A stretch of 64,000 nucleotides of DNA. It comes from Belnapia moabensis DSM 16746 (lineage in GTDB: Bacteria; Pseudomonadota; Alphaproteobacteria; Acetobacterales; Acetobacteraceae). This document shows positions 161 through 8,443 of this stretch, piece after piece (positions within the stretch are counted from its first letter, which is position 1; every line of letters begins with the position of its first letter). Location of the stretch: the NCBI RefSeq assembly GCF_000745835.1, contig NZ_JQKB01000003.1:124001-188000 (forward strand), given 5' to 3'. A program made the position numbers and the translations under genes. Under the pieces are notes generated by a model that was given only the letters and a program-made list of their open reading frames with translations, was not told where the DNA came from and searched no databases.

Positions 161-334
161 ATGGGCGTGCGGGCGCTCGGCTATGTCGGGATCGAGGCGA
201 GCCGGATGGAGGAGCGGAGCGGAGCGCAGATCGCCTTCCGCCTTGCTGACCGCAGGCAGCGGATGCTGGCAGGGAACCACACCCCAATGCCTGGAGGATG
301 CAGCTGGTGGGACCGGCCGAGAGCGGCGAAGTGA
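161..334 (+). pseudogene. Remnant of a VOC-family (extradiol-dioxygenase-like) gene with internal deletion
   Basis: A 57-residue reading frame begins at an ATG preceded by an excellent ribosome binding site (GGAGGAAAG, 151-159). Its first residues (MGVRALGYVGIEAS) look like the start of a vicinal-oxygen-chelate domain of the 2,3-dihydroxybiphenyl dioxygenase type. A few residues later comes IAFRLADRRQRMLAG, which resembles the second strand region (LxLRxDDRxxRxxV) normally found some 20 residues further on, so an internal piece seems to be missing. The frame then runs into unrelated sequence and stops at 332-334, overlapping the GTG proposed for the next gene. Family resemblance is judged by eye. 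It could instead be a chance frame, but the strong RBS argues for a former gene. Confidence 0.45.
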
Positions 335-1962
335 CGCGGCCGGAGCGGCGACTCCCCTCCCCGCGCGCGATGGTCGTCGCGCCGCAGCCGGAGGCGGTGG
401 AGGCGGGTGCGGCGATGCTGGCGGCGGGCGGCAATGCGCTGGATGCGGCGCTGGCCTGCGCGATCACCCAGGGCGTCGTCGATCCGATGATGTGCGGCAT
501 CGGCGGAATCGCCACCTTGCAGGTCTTCGACCCGGCCAGCGGGACGCATACGGTGCTCAACGGGCTGGGGACCTGCCCGGCGGCGGCACGCCCGGACATG
601 TGGGCGGAGCATTTCCTCGGCGAGTGCCCGGACGGGTTCGGCTATCGCGTGCGGGGGTATGAGAACGAGTGCGGAGCGCAGGCCGTCACCGTGCCGGGGG
701 CGGTGCGGGTCTTCGCCGAGGCGCATGCGCGGCTCGGGCGGAAGGACTGGGCCAGCCTGTTCGAGGCGGCGATCGGCTTCGCCGAGGAGGGGTGGATCAT
801 CCGGCCGCATGTGCAGGCGATGTTCACCCTCGACGAGCGGCCCTATGGGCGGATGAGCTATCCGGAGAAGCTTGGCTACACCGAGGATGGGCGGCGGCTC
901 TACCTGCGGGAGGACGGGACGCCGAAGCGGCTCGGCGAGGTGGTGCGCAACCCGGAGCTGGCGGCGACGCTCCGGGTGCTGGCCGAGGGTGGGGCGGAGG
1001 AGTTCTACCGGGGGCGGATCGCGCGGGCGATCGTCGCGGCGATGGAGGCGCGGGGCGGGCTGATCGACGCCGGGGACCTCGACGGCTTCCGAGTGGCGGA
1101 GGGGGCGCCGCTGCGCGTGCCCTATCGCGGGTATGAGCTGGCGCTGCCGGAGCCGCCGGCGGGGGGCGTCGTCGTCGGCGAGATGCTGCGGATCCTGGAG
1201 CGCTTCGACCTCGTGGCGCTTGGGCACAACACGCCGGACTACGTCGCGGTGGTGGCGGAGGCGATGAAGATCGCGGGCATCGACAAGGAGGCGCATGTCT
1301 GCGACCCGGCCTTCCAGGATGTGCCGGTCGGGCGGCTGCTGTCGGACGGGTATGCCGATGCGTGTGCGGCGCGCATCCGGCGGGGGGAGCGGGCGAGCCT
1401 CACCCGCGCGGGGAGCGACGCGCCGAACACCACGCATGTCTCCTGCGTCGATGCGGAGGGGATGATGGTGTCGATGACGCATACTCTCGCCGTACCCTCG
1501 GGCCTCATCGTGCCGGGGATGGGGTTCATGCTGAACGGGGCGATGAACTGGATGGACCCGCGGCCGGGGCGGGCGGGCTCCATCGCGCCGGGGAAGCGAC
1601 GGTATTCCTCCATGACGCCGACGATCGTGCTGCGGGAGGGGAAGCCGGTCGTGACGCTCGGGGCGCCGGGCGGAGCCTGGATTACCGTCGCCGTCGCGCA
1701 GGTGCTGCTCAACCTGCTCGACTGGGGCATGGGGATGCAGGAGGCGGTGATGGCGCCGCGCTTCTCGGCAACGAGCGAGACGATCGACCTGTCGAACCGC
1801 ATTCCGCGCGCGACGGAGCGGGCGTTGCGGGCGATGGGCTATGCGACGAAGCGGAGCTACCAGAGCTACGCCTTCGCCGGGGTGCATGGCATCGCCGTCT
1901 GGGACGGCACCGCAGAGGGCGGAGCCGATCCGCAGCGGGATGGGTATGCGGCCGGGGTCTAG
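331..1962 (+). CDS. Gamma-glutamyltransferase family protein
   Basis: About 543 residues, the usual length of gamma-glutamyltranspeptidase precursors (Ntn hydrolases that cleave or transfer the gamma-glutamyl group of glutathione and related amides). The N-terminal GGNALDAA block (about 33-40) and the autocleavage/nucleophile motif NTTHVSCVD (366-374, Thr367 expected nucleophile) are present, followed by a small-subunit GGAWI-like segment. No clear signal peptide is seen, so a cytoplasmic location is possible. The GTG at 331 is preferred because it overlaps the stop of the preceding remnant frame (GTGA) and has GAGAG at good spacing. An ATG at 298 is possible but its GGAGG directly abuts the codon. 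It converges with the next gene, sharing the palindrome CTAG. Confidence 0.88.
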   Translation: MTRPERRLPSPRAMVVAPQPEAVEAGAAMLAAGGNALDAALACAITQGVVDPMMCGIGGIATLQVFDPASGTHTVLNGLGTCPAAARPDMWAEHFLGECPDGFGYRVRGYENECGAQAVTVPGAVRVFAEAHARLGRKDWASLFEAAIGFAEEGWIIRPHVQAMFTLDERPYGRMSYPEKLGYTEDGRRLYLREDGTPKRLGEVVRNPELAATLRVLAEGGAEEFYRGRIARAIVAAMEARGGLIDAGDLDGFRVAEGAPLRVPYRGYELALPEPPAGGVVVGEMLRILERFDLVALGHNTPDYVAVVAEAMKIAGIDKEAHVCDPAFQDVPVGRLLSDGYADACAARIRRGERASLTRAGSDAPNTTHVSCVDAEGMMVSMTHTLAVPSGLIVPGMGFMLNGAMNWMDPRPGRAGSIAPGKRRYSSMTPTIVLREGKPVVTLGAPGGAWITVAVAQVLLNLLDWGMGMQEAVMAPRFSATSETIDLSNRIPRATERALRAMGYATKRSYQSYAFAGVHGIAVWDGTAEGGADPQRDGYAAGV

Positions 1963-3113: not shown

Positions 3114-3983
3114 TCAGCCCCCCAGGAACTCCTTGGTCCAGCGCTTGTAATCGGCGTCGCGGGTGACGCGGCCCATGAAGTCGGCGCCTGGCACGCCTTG
3201 CAGGTCGGCGGGCTGTACGCCCTCGCGGAGCGCCTTCAGCGTGGCGTAGACGGCTTGTTGGGCGGCCATGATGGGCTGGTGGCCCTGGAGTGCGATGCGG
3301 ACGCCGCGGGCGGCGAGGTAGTCGCGGTCCTTCAGCTCGGTGCCCTCGATGCCGCCGATGATGATGGGCAGGGTGGCGACGGCGGCGACGGCGTCCAGTT
3401 CGGCGCGGGTCTTGATCCCCGTATAGAAGAGGGCGTCGGCGCCGCTCGCGGTATAGGCCTTGGTGCGGGCGACGGCGTCCTCCACGCCGTTGACGGAGAC
3501 GACGCCGCTGCGGGCGACGATGACGAAGGAGGGGTCGTCGCGGGCGGCGAGCGCGGCGCGGACCTTGCCGAGGCCCTCTTCCAGGGAGATGAGCGTGACG
3601 CGGCCATCGCCATGGGGGCGGGGGAGGACAGTGTCCTCGAGCGTCATGGCGGCGACGCCGGCATTCTCCAGCTCCTCCACCGTGCGCATGGCGTTCAGCG
3701 CGTTGCCGTAGCCGTGGTCGGCATCGACCAGCACCGGCAGGGTGCGGACGGCGCGGCAGATGCGGCGGGCCTGCTGGGCGAATTCGCTGAGCGTCAGCAC
3801 GATGAGGTCGGGGGCGCCGAGCACGGTGAGCGAGGCGGTGGAGCCGGCATACATGCCAACCTCGAAGCCGAGATCCTCGGCGATGCGGGCCGACATCGGG
3901 TCGAAGACGGAGCCGGGATGGATGCAGGCCGGGCCGGCGAGGACGGCGCGGAAGCGCTGGCGGCGGTCGGTGATGCTGGACAT
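3114..3983 (-). CDS. Isocitrate lyase/PEP mutase-family enzyme, oxaloacetate-decarboxylase-like
   Basis: 289 residues forming one PEP-mutase/isocitrate-lyase barrel. The Mg-binding region DADHGYGN (87-94) and LEDTVLP (115-121) are clear. The loop that carries the KKCGH or KRCGH cysteine in lyases reads PRPHGDG instead, so it is not a classical isocitrate or methylisocitrate lyase. The overall pattern fits the Pseudomonas PA4872 type of oxaloacetate decarboxylase. Start: the ATG at 3983 has GGAG nine bases upstream and lies five bases after the stop of the preceding gene; an upstream TTG at 4001 would overlap that gene. Same operon as the amidohydrolase. Likely C-C bond cleavage or decarboxylation of an oxo acid; exact substrate unknown. 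Confidence 0.82.
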   Translation of the reverse strand: MSSITDRRQRFRAVLAGPACIHPGSVFDPMSARIAEDLGFEVGMYAGSTASLTVLGAPDLIVLTLSEFAQQARRICRAVRTLPVLVDADHGYGNALNAMRTVEELENAGVAAMTLEDTVLPRPHGDGRVTLISLEEGLGKVRAALAARDDPSFVIVARSGVVSVNGVEDAVARTKAYTASGADALFYTGIKTRAELDAVAAVATLPIIIGGIEGTELKDRDYLAARGVRIALQGHQPIMAAQQAVYATLKALREGVQPADLQGVPGADFMGRVTRDADYKRWTKEFLGG

Positions 3984-3988
3984 GCGGC

Positions 3989-5236
3989 TCACTCCGGCCA
4001 ATGTAGAGGGGGGCGGTGCAGCGTGACGGGCTGGCGCGTGGCGCTGCGGCGGCCGCGCTTGAAGGCGGCGAGGACGGGGGCGACCTCGCGGATCGCGGCG
4101 ACGGGGTCTGGGGCGTCGATCAGTGTGAGGTCGGCCGGGTTGCCGACCGTGATGCCGTAGTCGCGGCGGCGCATCAGCCTGGCTGACTCGGTGGTGAACA
4201 TGGACCAGGTCTCGCGCAGGTCGTCCGGCATCGCGTGCTGGGTAACGTTGGCGTAAAGGTTCGCCATGCGAATGAGCTGGCCGTCGCCCATCGGGGTGAA
4301 GGCGTTCAGGATGTTGTTGGAGGAGATGGAGCAGGTGACGCCGAGGCGGTGCAGGCGGTTGGCGTCGGCCACGCTGCGCTCGATGCGGTGGTCCTTGTCG
4401 CGACCGCCGAGATAGACGTCGGTGGCGGGGAGGACGGTGAGCGCGACGCCGGCATCGGCCATGCGCTTCGCCATCGCGTCCAGCTCCGGCAGGGGCATGA
4501 CCGAGAGCTTGGTCAGGTGGCCGCAGGCGACGCGGCCGCCCCAGCCGTATTGCTCAGTCAGGTCGCAGACTAGGCGGGTGTCGAGATGGGCGGCGGAGGA
4601 GCCGCTGTCGACATGCATATCGATATCGGCGTCGTACTCGCGGGCCAGCTCGAAGACACGGCGGATCTGGCCGGCGGGGTCGGTGTCGTAACTGGGGGCG
4701 GCGCCGACGACGCGGGCGCCGTTGCGGAGCGCGGCCACCATCAGCTCGTCGGTGCCGGGGTTGTTGAGCAGGCCCTCCTGCGGCATCACGCAGATCTCGA
4801 TGTCGATGGCCCATTTGTACTCGTCGACCAGGGCCTTGACGCCCTCAAACCCGCGCAGGCCGACCTTCGGGTCCACCTCGGCATGGGTGCGCATCAGCGT
4901 GGTGCCGTGACCGATGCACTTCTCCAACGTGCGGCGGGCGCGGTCGGTCACGTCCTCAACGGTGAAAGTGTGCTTGATCGCGCTGGTGCGTTCCATCGCG
5001 TGATGCGGGAAGCGGGCGGTCTCGCAGGCGCAGCGGTCGATGGTGCAGGTCTTGTCGAGATGGATGTGGGTCTCAACGAAGCCGGGGGAGACGAGGCGGC
5101 CGGCGCAGTCGATCACCTCTGCCACATCGGCCGCGAGGTTCGGCGCGAGGGCGGCGATGAGGCCGTCCTTCACGCCGATATCGGTGGCGGTGCCGTCGGG
5201 CAGGCGGGCGTTGCGGAGGAGGAGGTCGAGGGCCAT
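3989..5236 (-). CDS. Amidohydrolase-family protein (cytosine deaminase/AtzC-like) with altered active site
   Basis: 415 residues, amidohydrolase superfamily, closest in layout to cytosine deaminase and isopropylammelide amidohydrolase. The first metal motif THIHLDK (56-62, His57/His59), the third ligand His208 and the GH motif His240 are present. By alignment in mind with E. coli CodA, the catalytic Glu217 position is Ser211 (HVDSGSS) and the metal ligand Asp313 position is Asn307 (ISSNNILN), followed by the expected MGDGQL loop. The reaction therefore cannot be assumed to be deamination. The ATG shares one base with the TGA of the HisD-like gene (TGATG), so the two are translationally coupled. 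Confidence 0.82.
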   Translation of the reverse strand: MALDLLLRNARLPDGTATDIGVKDGLIAALAPNLAADVAEVIDCAGRLVSPGFVETHIHLDKTCTIDRCACETARFPHHAMERTSAIKHTFTVEDVTDRARRTLEKCIGHGTTLMRTHAEVDPKVGLRGFEGVKALVDEYKWAIDIEICVMPQEGLLNNPGTDELMVAALRNGARVVGAAPSYDTDPAGQIRRVFELAREYDADIDMHVDSGSSAAHLDTRLVCDLTEQYGWGGRVACGHLTKLSVMPLPELDAMAKRMADAGVALTVLPATDVYLGGRDKDHRIERSVADANRLHRLGVTCSISSNNILNAFTPMGDGQLIRMANLYANVTQHAMPDDLRETWSMFTTESARLMRRRDYGITVGNPADLTLIDAPDPVAAIREVAPVLAAFKRGRRSATRQPVTLHRPPLHWPE

Positions 5237-6561: not shown

Positions 6562-7329
6562 TTACTCGGCGGTCCAGCCGCCATCGATGAGCATCGCCGA
6601 GCCCGTCATCAGGGCCGAGGCGTCGGAGGCGAGGAAGACGACGGGACCCATCAGATCCTGCACCTGGCCGAGGCGGCCGAGCTTGATCTTGCTGAGGACC
6701 CAATCGGCAAATTCGGGGCGCTCGAAGAAGGGCTTCGTCATCGGCGTCTCGATGAAGGTGGGGCCGATGGTGTTGGCGCGAATCCCGAGGGGGGCGAGCT
6801 CGATCGCCATCGCCTTGGTCCAGCCCTCCATCGCCCATTTGCTGGCGCAATAGACGCTGCGGTTGGGGCCGCCGACATGGCCCATCTGCGAGGAGATGTT
6901 GATGATGGAACCGGGGATGCGCTCCTCGGCCATGCGGCGGGCGACGGCCTGTGCCGCGAAGAAGCAGCCGCGGAGGTTCAGCGCCAGCACGGTGTCGAAA
7001 TCGGCCTCGGTTACCTCGAGGAAGGGAGCGTGGCGGGAGGTGCCGGCATTGTTAACGAAGGCGTGGAAGGCGGGGCGCGCGGCGATGGCGGCCTGGACGG
7101 CGGCGGTGTCGGCGATGTCGAGCACCAGCGCCTCGGCCTGGCCGCCGCAGGCGCGGATAGCCTCGGCGGCGGCCTCGACCTCATCGCCGGTGCGGGCGGC
7201 GAGCGTCACCGAGGCCCCTGCCCCGGCCAGCGCGGCGGCGGCGGCGAGGCCGATGCCGCGGCCGGCGCCGGTGACGAGGGCACGGCGGCCGTCGAGGCGG
7301 AAGCTCGGGGTCTCGGGGAGAACGGTCAT
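6562..7329 (-). CDS. SDR-family oxidoreductase
   Basis: 255 residues, classical short-chain dehydrogenase. The NAD(P)-binding TGAGRGIG (20-27), NNAG (93-96) and the catalytic set Ser147, Tyr160, Lys164 (YCASK) are all present, and the C-terminal ML-IDGGW stretch is typical. It appears to be the first gene of the minus-strand operon continuing through the HisD-like dehydrogenase, amidohydrolase, lyase and hydroxy-acid oxidase. A joint role in oxidising an alcohol substrate of that pathway is inferred. The RBS is weak (GCCGGG next to the ATG). Confidence 0.88.
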   Translation of the reverse strand: MTVLPETPSFRLDGRRALVTGAGRGIGLAAAAALAGAGASVTLAARTGDEVEAAAEAIRACGGQAEALVLDIADTAAVQAAIAARPAFHAFVNNAGTSRHAPFLEVTEADFDTVLALNLRGCFFAAQAVARRMAEERIPGSIINISSQMGHVGGPNRSVYCASKWAMEGWTKAMAIELAPLGIRANTIGPTFIETPMTKPFFERPEFADWVLSKIKLGRLGQVQDLMGPVVFLASDASALMTGSAMLIDGGWTAE

Positions 7330-7444: not shown

Positions 7445-8443
7445 ATGAAGAGCCTGTTCAGCGCGCTCGCGGGCGCAGCGCTTGGCCTGTTCGCATCATC
7501 GGCCCTGGTTCCACCCGCCCTGGCGCAGACGCGCTGGGTGATGGCGACACCTTATGCGGAGGCGAATTTCCATACGCGCAACGTCCGCGCCTTCCTGGCC
7601 GATATCGAGCAGGGGACGGGCGGGCGGCTGGCGGTGCAGGCGCATCACAACGGGACGCTGCTGGCGATGCCGCAGATCAAGCGCGGGGTGCAGACCGGGC
7701 AGGTGCAACTCGGCGAGATCCTGCTCTCGGCCTATGGCAACGAGGACCCGTTCTTCGAGGTGGATAGCGTGCCGTTCCTCGCCGATACCGTCGAGGCGGC
7801 GGGGGCGCTGCACCGGGCGACCGAGCCCTATATCCGCGCGCGCTTCGAGCGGCAGGGGCTGACGCTGCTCTACATGGTCAACTGGACCGGACAGGGTTTC
7901 TACACGCGGGAGCCGCTGCAATCCGTCGAGGCGCTGAAGGGGACGCGGATGCGGGCCTTCAACAACCTGACCTTCCGCTTCGCCGAGCTGCTGGGGGCGC
8001 AGCCCGTCACCGTGCAGGTACCGGAGATCCCGCAGGCCTTTGCCACCAACGTGGTCAACGTGCTCTTCACCTCGGCGCAGACGGGGGTGGATGCGAGCGC
8101 CTGGGACTTCGCCCGCAACTTCACCGATGTGGGCGGGATGCGGCCGCGGAACGCGGTCTTTGCGAATAGCCGGGCGCTGGCCACGCTCGATGCGGCGCAG
8201 CGGGCGGCGGTAATGGAGGCGGCGAAGCGGGCGGAGGCGCGCGGGGCCGAGTATTCGCGCGAGGCGGAGGTGGAGATGGTCGGCAAGCTGCGGAGCCATG
8301 ACGTGCAGGTGGCCAGCGTGGCGCCGGCGATGCAGCAGCAGCTCCGCGCCATCGGCGAGGTGCAGACGCGGGAATGGCTCGGCCGCGCCGGGAGCGAGGG
8401 CGGGCAGATGCTGGAGCGGTATCGCGCCCTACTCAGCCGGTGA
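7445..8443 (+). CDS. TRAP transporter substrate-binding protein (DctP family)
   Basis: 332 residues with an N-terminal signal peptide (1-27, ending PPALAQ). The mature protein begins RWVMATPY and carries the DctP-type landmarks LRGMxMR-like (LKGTRMRAFNN) and the VQVPEIPQAF segment that contacts carboxylate ligands. Start ATG 7445 has GGGAGA ten bases upstream. It is divergent from the SDR at 7329, so the 115-bp gap should hold both promoters. No DctQ or DctM membrane subunit is in the window, so this receptor is an orphan here. It may deliver a carboxylic acid feeding the neighbouring catabolic operon. Confidence 0.86.
   Translation: MKSLFSALAGAALGLFASSALVPPALAQTRWVMATPYAEANFHTRNVRAFLADIEQGTGGRLAVQAHHNGTLLAMPQIKRGVQTGQVQLGEILLSAYGNEDPFFEVDSVPFLADTVEAAGALHRATEPYIRARFERQGLTLLYMVNWTGQGFYTREPLQSVEALKGTRMRAFNNLTFRFAELLGAQPVTVQVPEIPQAFATNVVNVLFTSAQTGVDASAWDFARNFTDVGGMRPRNAVFANSRALATLDAAQRAAVMEAAKRAEARGAEYSREAEVEMVGKLRSHDVQVASVAPAMQQQLRAIGEVQTREWLGRAGSEGGQMLERYRALLSR

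Follow-up and report, generated by a model that had tools for sequence, protein, structure and literature searches.

A clade of CodA/AtzC-branch amidohydrolases with a rearranged metal site, seen from an operon of Belnapia moabensis

A 64,000-nucleotide stretch of DNA from Belnapia moabensis DSM 16746 (referred to below as the window) codes for an amidohydrolase (3989..5236, minus strand) in which a catalytic acid and a metal ligand of cytosine deaminase CodA seem to be missing. This raises the question if the gene is decaying, if its product has become a binding protein, or if it is an enzyme with a rebuilt site, and if the changes are private to its operon. To our knowledge, the beta-8 Asp, the ligand in question, is close to universal in the amidohydrolase superfamily. 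It is a metal ligand in both nearest characterised enzymes, CodA and AtzC (PMC4577212).

The gene, its operon and its fold

The amidohydrolase (P0001) has 415 residues and is encoded by a complete ORF. It passes the cut-offs of PF07969 (89.7 bits, cut-off 29.7) and PF01979 (68.5 bits, cut-off 25). The minus-strand operon has the order SDR dehydrogenase, HisD-like dehydrogenase, amidohydrolase, lyase, FMN-dependent dehydrogenase. The first gene codes for the SDR dehydrogenase (6562..7329). It is followed by that for a HisD-like Zn/NAD dehydrogenase (P0002, 5236..6549), which overlaps the amidohydrolase start (TGATG) and is found only in operons of the window type. The lyase is a PEP-mutase/isocitrate-lyase family protein (3114..4001), and its nearest solved relative is the oxaloacetate decarboxylase PA4872. 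The listed start of this gene is a TTG; an ATG at 3983, six codons further in, lies beyond the amidohydrolase stop. The operon ends with the gene for an FMN-dependent dehydrogenase family protein (PF01070, 1959..3056). Convergent to it is a gene for a gamma-glutamyltranspeptidase family protein (298..1962, plus strand), a family that recurs beside related amidohydrolase genes elsewhere. The earlier note had described the amidohydrolase gene as complete and translationally coupled; the gene is indeed complete and under selection, and the TGATG overlap is seen in the sequence. Its nearest named relative among the best 80 of 506 matches is from Belnapia arida (96%).

Divergent to the operon is a gene for a DctP-type TRAP receptor (7475-8443, plus strand); the ten proteins that were scanned in the first 11 kb of the window include no TRAP membrane subunit.

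The nearest PDB entry to the HisD-like protein is HpsN, a DHPS dehydrogenase (8v35, E 2e-117). The residues typical of the HisD/HpsN superfamily are present in P0002, namely the Zn ligands Q250, H253, D352 and H412 and the catalytic pair E318-H319 (roles as given for HisD and HpsN in PMC11382572). The motif that defines HpsN according to the same report is G-R-Y-A/S-H, which contains His126. P0002 has G-K-Y-P-L, with Leu at the position of His126, and a function as DHPS dehydrogenase was ruled out on the basis of this missing histidine. The protein may, as far as its residues tell, represent a third specificity of the HisD/HpsN fold.

An AlphaFold2 model of the window protein was computed from 47 aligned rows (the window protein plus 46 of the 80 scan loci) and has a mean pLDDT of 93.4 and a pTM of 0.92. 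The top structural matches (Foldseek, VIA-align) are CodA, the Klebsiella 5-methylcytosine deaminase and Pseudomonas AtzC, with Z 52.6-54.6 and rmsd 1.9-2.4 over 386-409 residues. CodA entries reach Z 53.0-54.6 at 27% identity and AtzC reaches 52.6-53.0; imidazolonepropionase scores far lower (Z 39.7). The superfamily motifs (beta-1 HxH, beta-5 His and beta-6 His) are present in all 152 sequences of the clade described below. The protein has the CodA fold, a distorted TIM barrel, and belongs to the CodA/AtzC branch of the amidohydrolase superfamily.

Active-site residues compared with CodA and AtzC

CodA from E. coli aligns to residues 7-404 of the window protein (phmmer, E 4e-43). Residues were mapped with MAFFT using E. 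coli K-12 CodA, whose residues are given in crystal numbering; all codons cited are on the minus strand. The fold is shared with CodA (PDB 1k6w, 3o7u), and so are the beta-1 HxH motif (His57-x-His59, 5060..5068; CodA H61/H63), Gln153 (4778..4780; Gln156), the beta-5 ligand His208 (4613..4615; H214) and His240 on beta-6 (4517..4519; H246). Ser211 (codon AGC, 4604..4606) is found at the position of Glu217. Asn307, Asn308 and Asn311 (4304..4318) are found at those of the metal ligand Asp313 and of Asp314 and Asp317, so that the Asp-Asp-x-x-Asp of CodA reads Asn-Asn-x-x-Asn; the codon of Asn307 was checked and is AAC at 4316-4318. Asp273 (4418..4420), an invariant acid in the helix after beta-7, corresponds to Asn279, and Lys62 (5051..5053) to Thr66. 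Lys62, Arg68 and Arg323 are basic, and their CodA counterparts are not.

The earlier note had reported, by eye, the changes at the Glu217 and Asp313 positions together with the retention of His57, His59, His208 and His240. Both changes are real and the histidines are kept, as judged from phmmer, MAFFT and the codons. The asparagines at 308 and 311, Lys62 and Asp273 go beyond it. Measured by the catalytic Glu217 and Asp313 of CodA, the window protein, with Ser211 and Asn307, does not qualify. The mononuclear subtype III site (His, His, His, Asp) likewise lacks its beta-8 Asp, since Asn307 is found in the window protein and in 152/152 clade sequences.

An alignment shift that hides the true Asp was considered and ruled out: the phmmer alignment to CodA is gapless from residue 207, and the next acids downstream in CodA (Asp314 and Asp317) are Asn here too.

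From the alignment, it appears that the Asn/Asp on beta-7 and beta-8 became Asp/Asn, which makes Asp273 a candidate for the substitute acid. In the model, Asp273 is in a short helix (270-276) after beta-7 (264-268), and Asn307 follows beta-8 (302-304). It is plausible rather than shown that Asp273 faces the pocket, because its counterpart in CodA, Asn279, is flanked by Val278 (the residue just before) and Leu282 (three after), which the AtzC authors list among the active-site differences (PMC4577212). The earlier note took the ligand position as lost unless a different acid fills it; Asp273, beside the site, may be such an acid.

The protein also shares its fold with AtzC (N-isopropylammelide amidohydrolase; PDB 4cqb, 2qt3), where Lys65, Gln160, Asn304 and His249 correspond to Lys62, Gln153, Asn308 and His240. 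AtzC numbering and roles are those of PMC4577212; the AtzC sequence that was aligned numbers four higher after residue 65. According to that report, the zinc of AtzC is held by His60, His62, His217 and Asp303, the residues Gln160, Asn304 and Lys65 are placed as ring-binding, and the His249Ala variant has no detectable activity. AtzC differs in having the metal ligand Asp303 where Asn307 is found here, in keeping an Asp at the Asp317 position, and in having no Asp opposite Asp273, in a stretch that aligns poorly. The AtzC authors match His219 to CodA Glu217 by structural comparison (PMC4577212). Our sequence alignment disagrees, as an AtzC Asp and not His219 is opposite the Ser211/Glu217 column.

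In carbonic anhydrase, three histidines are enough to hold zinc. The AtzC authors liken their mechanism to that of carbonic anhydrase (PMC4577212). On both grounds, a metal is probably still bound by the three histidines of the window protein. The protein might also be a real enzyme with another chemistry, either metal-free or metal-dependent but non-hydrolytic (a lyase or isomerase), in which His240 and Asp273 would form an acid-base pair. We consider this unlikely, though not far-fetched. It would account for the loss of the acids of the CodA site region (Glu217, Asp313 and Asp317) and for the basic Lys62, Arg68 and Arg323, a combination that would fit a negatively charged substrate or a site that lacks a metal. 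However, the three ligand histidines are invariant (152/152), and this is difficult to account for if no metal is bound.

Conservation and distribution of the signature

The changes were followed in 218 distinct aligned sequences. These stem from 250 translated matches, with identical proteins merged and with the window protein, CodA and YahJ included. Excluded were matches covering less than 60% of a query and one partial sequence (L224); 12 sequences running over a stop, which had been omitted from an earlier alignment, were included after being cut at the stop. A signature with no acid at 211 and with Asp273, Asn307, Asn308 and Asn311 is fixed in 152 of the 218, a sample that is skewed to close relatives because many rows are from the best 80 of 506 matches. 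The signature sequences are called the NN clade here. The remaining 66 rows (canonical) have an acid (Glu or Asp) at 211 and Asp at both 307 and 311; position 273 is never Asp in them, but Asn, a gap, or once each Thr and Ser. Mixed forms do not occur among the 218 rows. The three ligand histidines and the equivalents of Gln153 and His240 are kept in all signature sequences, and Lys62 in 44/44 NN rows. The pair Asn307-Asn308 was also found in 110/110 matching loci of relatives (of 116 loci, with the window's own gene and some genomes entered twice). Thus, the changes are not a peculiarity of the window gene. As to whether close homologues keep Ser and Asn, which the earlier note wanted to see checked, Asn307 is constant in the signature sequences; position 211 is variable and holds S, T, F, L, M, V or I.

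A sequencing error or a pseudogene was ruled out by the 110/110 loci, the 152/152 sequences, and the purifying selection on the window gene (dN/dS 0.09-0.24 in comparison with nine relatives). Nothing beyond the unusual residues themselves speaks for a degenerating gene or an assembly error, and the complete ORF and the overlap with the upstream gene speak against it as well; this explanation is practically negligible. The same change, fixed across a large group of relatives, points to a rebuilt active site and not to a damaged gene. We conclude that the protein represents a clade-wide variant with a rearranged metal site, which is neither decay nor a private invention of the window operon.

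In a tree built without the signature columns, a single branch separates the signature type (44 of 69 rows) from the rest, with SH-aLRT 91. A second tree, also without these columns, gives the same (37 of 61 rows) with a support of 90, which the program does not star (stars are given at 95). A single origin is thus favoured by the sequences but not proven, and the support of 90-91, below the star level, counts against our preferred reading given below. As the swap appears only once on the trees, its covariation amounts to one event. Position 211 changes class three times on the tree. Phe is found there in the basal and outer branches, so Ser/Thr looks derived and Ser211 looks like a late state.

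A pseudoenzyme, or a binding or regulatory subunit as in the CRMPs, was also considered, and we regard it as improbable. One ligand and a catalytic acid are lost, and there is a precedent with an amidohydrolase fold and ligand loss: CRMP-4 is reported to keep only two of the six metal-binding residues of dihydropyrimidinase (PMC4051505). A pseudoenzyme of the kind of the CRMPs and other pseudo-dihydropyrimidinases would be expected to have lost most of these residues, but the NN clade is changed at just one of four ligand positions; its histidines are kept, the rest of the site is invariant, and an invariant acid has been gained. The earlier note had proposed a new chemistry or a binding role. 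Of these, the first is the more natural: changes that are fixed across a whole clade speak for a different chemistry, or at the least for an active site of another kind. A pure binding role seems less likely.

Signature members are found in Acetobacteraceae, Rhizobium, Agrobacterium, Aureimonas, Pleomorphomonas, Methylobacterium, Haematobacter, Sinorhizobium and another Rhodobacterales bacterium. They also occur in Enterococcus faecalis and in two genomes (L178, L181) related to that of the window at phylum level only. The whole-genome searches covered the window's own phylum; the Enterococcus member is from a plasmid collection. Matches to the window protein (E 1e-20) were found in 153/299 genomes of the order sample, and matches to the clade profile in 67/299 genomes of the phylum sample (E 1e-40) and 54/385 of the class sample (E 1e-60), all three counts being mixtures of signature members and canonical relatives. 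The Enterococcus record (L201, NZ_CP143580.1 294171-311352) is a 747-kb "plasmid" with chromosomal-looking genes and may be a mislabelled piece of the chromosome.

The window protein reaches no NCBIfam cut-off; the best model is NF004636 (251.5 vs. 408), and the cytosine deaminase models NF006685 (171 bits, cut-off 483) and NF005748 (203.6, cut-off 438) are also missed. Eight further NN-clade proteins reach none either among the NCBIfam families listed at E 1e-40. These unreached cut-offs are in line with another chemistry. In annotated plasmid regions, clade members are called "amidohydrolase family protein" or "cytosine deaminase"; the latter is probably wrong as to the substrate. The clade was not found to be named in the open-access literature searched, partly with neighbours and pathways as targets, a search which subscription papers would escape.

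Gene neighbourhoods and a proposed function

(a) At the 23 window-type loci, the HisD-like gene is present in 23, the lyase and the FMN-dependent dehydrogenase in 22 each and the SDR dehydrogenase in 20, with the missing ones at contig ends. HisD, lyase and FMN-dependent dehydrogenase are each found in 0/57 of the other scan loci. The HisD-like/lyase operon, in which the earlier note had placed the changed site, is therefore the setting of the window type only, and as a cause of the residue changes it was ruled out by the same 0/57.

(b) Further neighbours were counted at loci that have a flank of 2.5 kb or more on one side (23 window-type, 55 other scan, 34 further NN and 37 canonical loci). 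A gamma-glutamyltranspeptidase gene adjoins in 12/23, 1/55 and 10/34 of the three NN groups, in this order, compared to 1/37 canonical loci. The sole canonical case (L199, a plasmid from Sinorhizobium sp. BG8), counted as such, also holds a match to the window protein (44% identity) in two pieces, and this gene may be frame-broken. A PF01425 amidase adjoins in 0/23, 17/55 and 3/34 vs. 2/37, a cytosine/purine-type permease in 0/23, 0/55 and 5/34 vs. 0/37, and a GntR-FCD regulator in 0/23, 0/55 and 8/34 vs. 0/37. Canonical counts are lowered by shorter flanks (mean 6.0 kb vs. 9.8-10.9 kb for the NN groups), and the NN side is favoured because the choice of families was guided by the NN loci. Rows are related to each other, and one canonical locus was counted twice, in the amidase as well as in the deaminase figures. 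Two candidates do not discriminate and were dropped as specific neighbours: 8-oxoguanine deaminase (0/23, 1/55 and 4/34 vs. 5/37) and LIV-type transporter genes (0/23, 5/55 and 8/34 vs. 7/37). TctC receptors adjoin in 42/55 other scan loci, 0/23 window-type and 0/34 further NN loci. This receptor family is abundant in these bacteria.

(c) In four loci from distant genomes of the phylum (L244, L245, L247 and L165), a gene for a LIV-type permease-ATPase fusion is directly upstream of the NN-clade gene. This suggests a dedicated importer, but canonical relatives often have LIV-type genes nearby, too.

(d) YahJ-type amidohydrolases (E. coli YahJ) share HxH...K, Gln, His and His with the NN clade but retain an acid (Glu or Asp) at 211 and the Asp at 307. 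Genes for such proteins, with the beta-8 Asp kept, are near the NN-clade gene in L202 (5216-9224), L121, L122, L124 and L248; in Sinorhizobium, a gamma-glutamyltranspeptidase gene is between the two. Do the two proteins form a pathway pair or a complex? The adjoining YahJ-type gene in L121, L122, L124 and L202 would also fit a partner role for a pseudoenzyme. However, the annotation of 5/9 plasmid regions (L160, L161, L165, L166 and L167) shows no further amidohydrolase or deaminase within 7 kb.

(e) The basal group of the tree consists of L133, L182 and the Enterococcus protein. The first is beside a cytosine/purine-type permease, and the second (same as L246) is upstream of a gamma-glutamyltranspeptidase gene. 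The Enterococcus gene is in a cluster that also codes for FdrA, AllH (PF11392), a carbamate kinase and an AllD-like protein with the annotation ureidoglycolate dehydrogenase. No AllG was identified there; a protein of 451 residues encoded among these genes has no Pfam match. DUF2877 and carbamate-kinase-like genes also adjoin YahJ, as in the Enterococcus cluster. An oxalurate pathway is reportedly present in Streptococcus faecalis and is said to be induced by parabanic acid, going by the titles of older papers. Parabanate is a candidate substrate taken from one such title. In E. coli, AllF (FdrA), AllG and AllH are reported to form an oxamic transcarbamylase that acts on oxalurate (PMC11326118). 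Because of this role and the All-type cluster, opening of a cyclic ureide to oxalurate or ureidoglycolate is the natural first candidate in Enterococcus.

With moderate confidence, we predict that the NN clade, as a distinct clade of the CodA/AtzC branch, consists of working hydrolases with a rewired site, which probably depend on a metal and act on N-heterocycles or cyclic ureides. The basis, from sequences and the model, is the fold, the three ligand histidines, the Gln, the beta-6 His, the beta-8/beta-7 exchange, the loss of the beta-5 acid, the unity of the clade and the purifying selection. The three histidines would still bind one metal ion; Asn307 could serve as a fourth, neutral ligand, or Asp273 could replace it or form a hydrogen bond to it. 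His240, the equivalent of AtzC His249, would activate the metal-bound water with the help of Asp273, which could alternatively be the hydrogen-bond partner of Asn307, a new ligand, or the base. The ring would be bound by Lys62, Gln153 and Asn308, in the manner of Lys65, Gln160 and Asn304 of AtzC. Judging from the neighbours, the substrate would be an N-heterocycle or a cyclic ureide that probably carries a carboxylate or gives rise to one. The opened product might then be passed to the amidase, to the gamma-glutamyltranspeptidase-like hydrolase or, in Enterococcus, to the oxalurate pathway. The window lineage would have recruited the enzyme to the SDR/HisD-like/lyase/FMN-dehydrogenase operon. 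As a counterpoint to hydrolysis of ureides, the neighbouring genes vary from branch to branch, and several of these settings give no hint of ureides (TctC, 42/55). The grouping of the window gene with dehydrogenases and a lyase is what the reading as another chemistry would expect, but hydrolases are frequent neighbours in other branches.

It is tempting to go one step further. Beta-7 (Asp273) may have taken over from beta-8 in providing the metal ligand, or the enzyme may do without a metal altogether, and the reaction may be an undescribed ring opening (e.g., of a parabanate-like or hydroxyhydantoin-like ureide that feeds oxalurate in Enterococcus). We consider this a doubtful proposal. If true, the clade would represent a new active-site subtype and provide a missing enzyme of ureide catabolism. 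The NN clade, which extends over several classes of Proteobacteria and to Enterococcus, is a clean natural experiment on how such sites can be rebuilt, and its recurrent neighbours (amidase, gamma-glutamyltranspeptidase, cytosine/purine-type permease and oxalurate genes) give concrete substrates to try.
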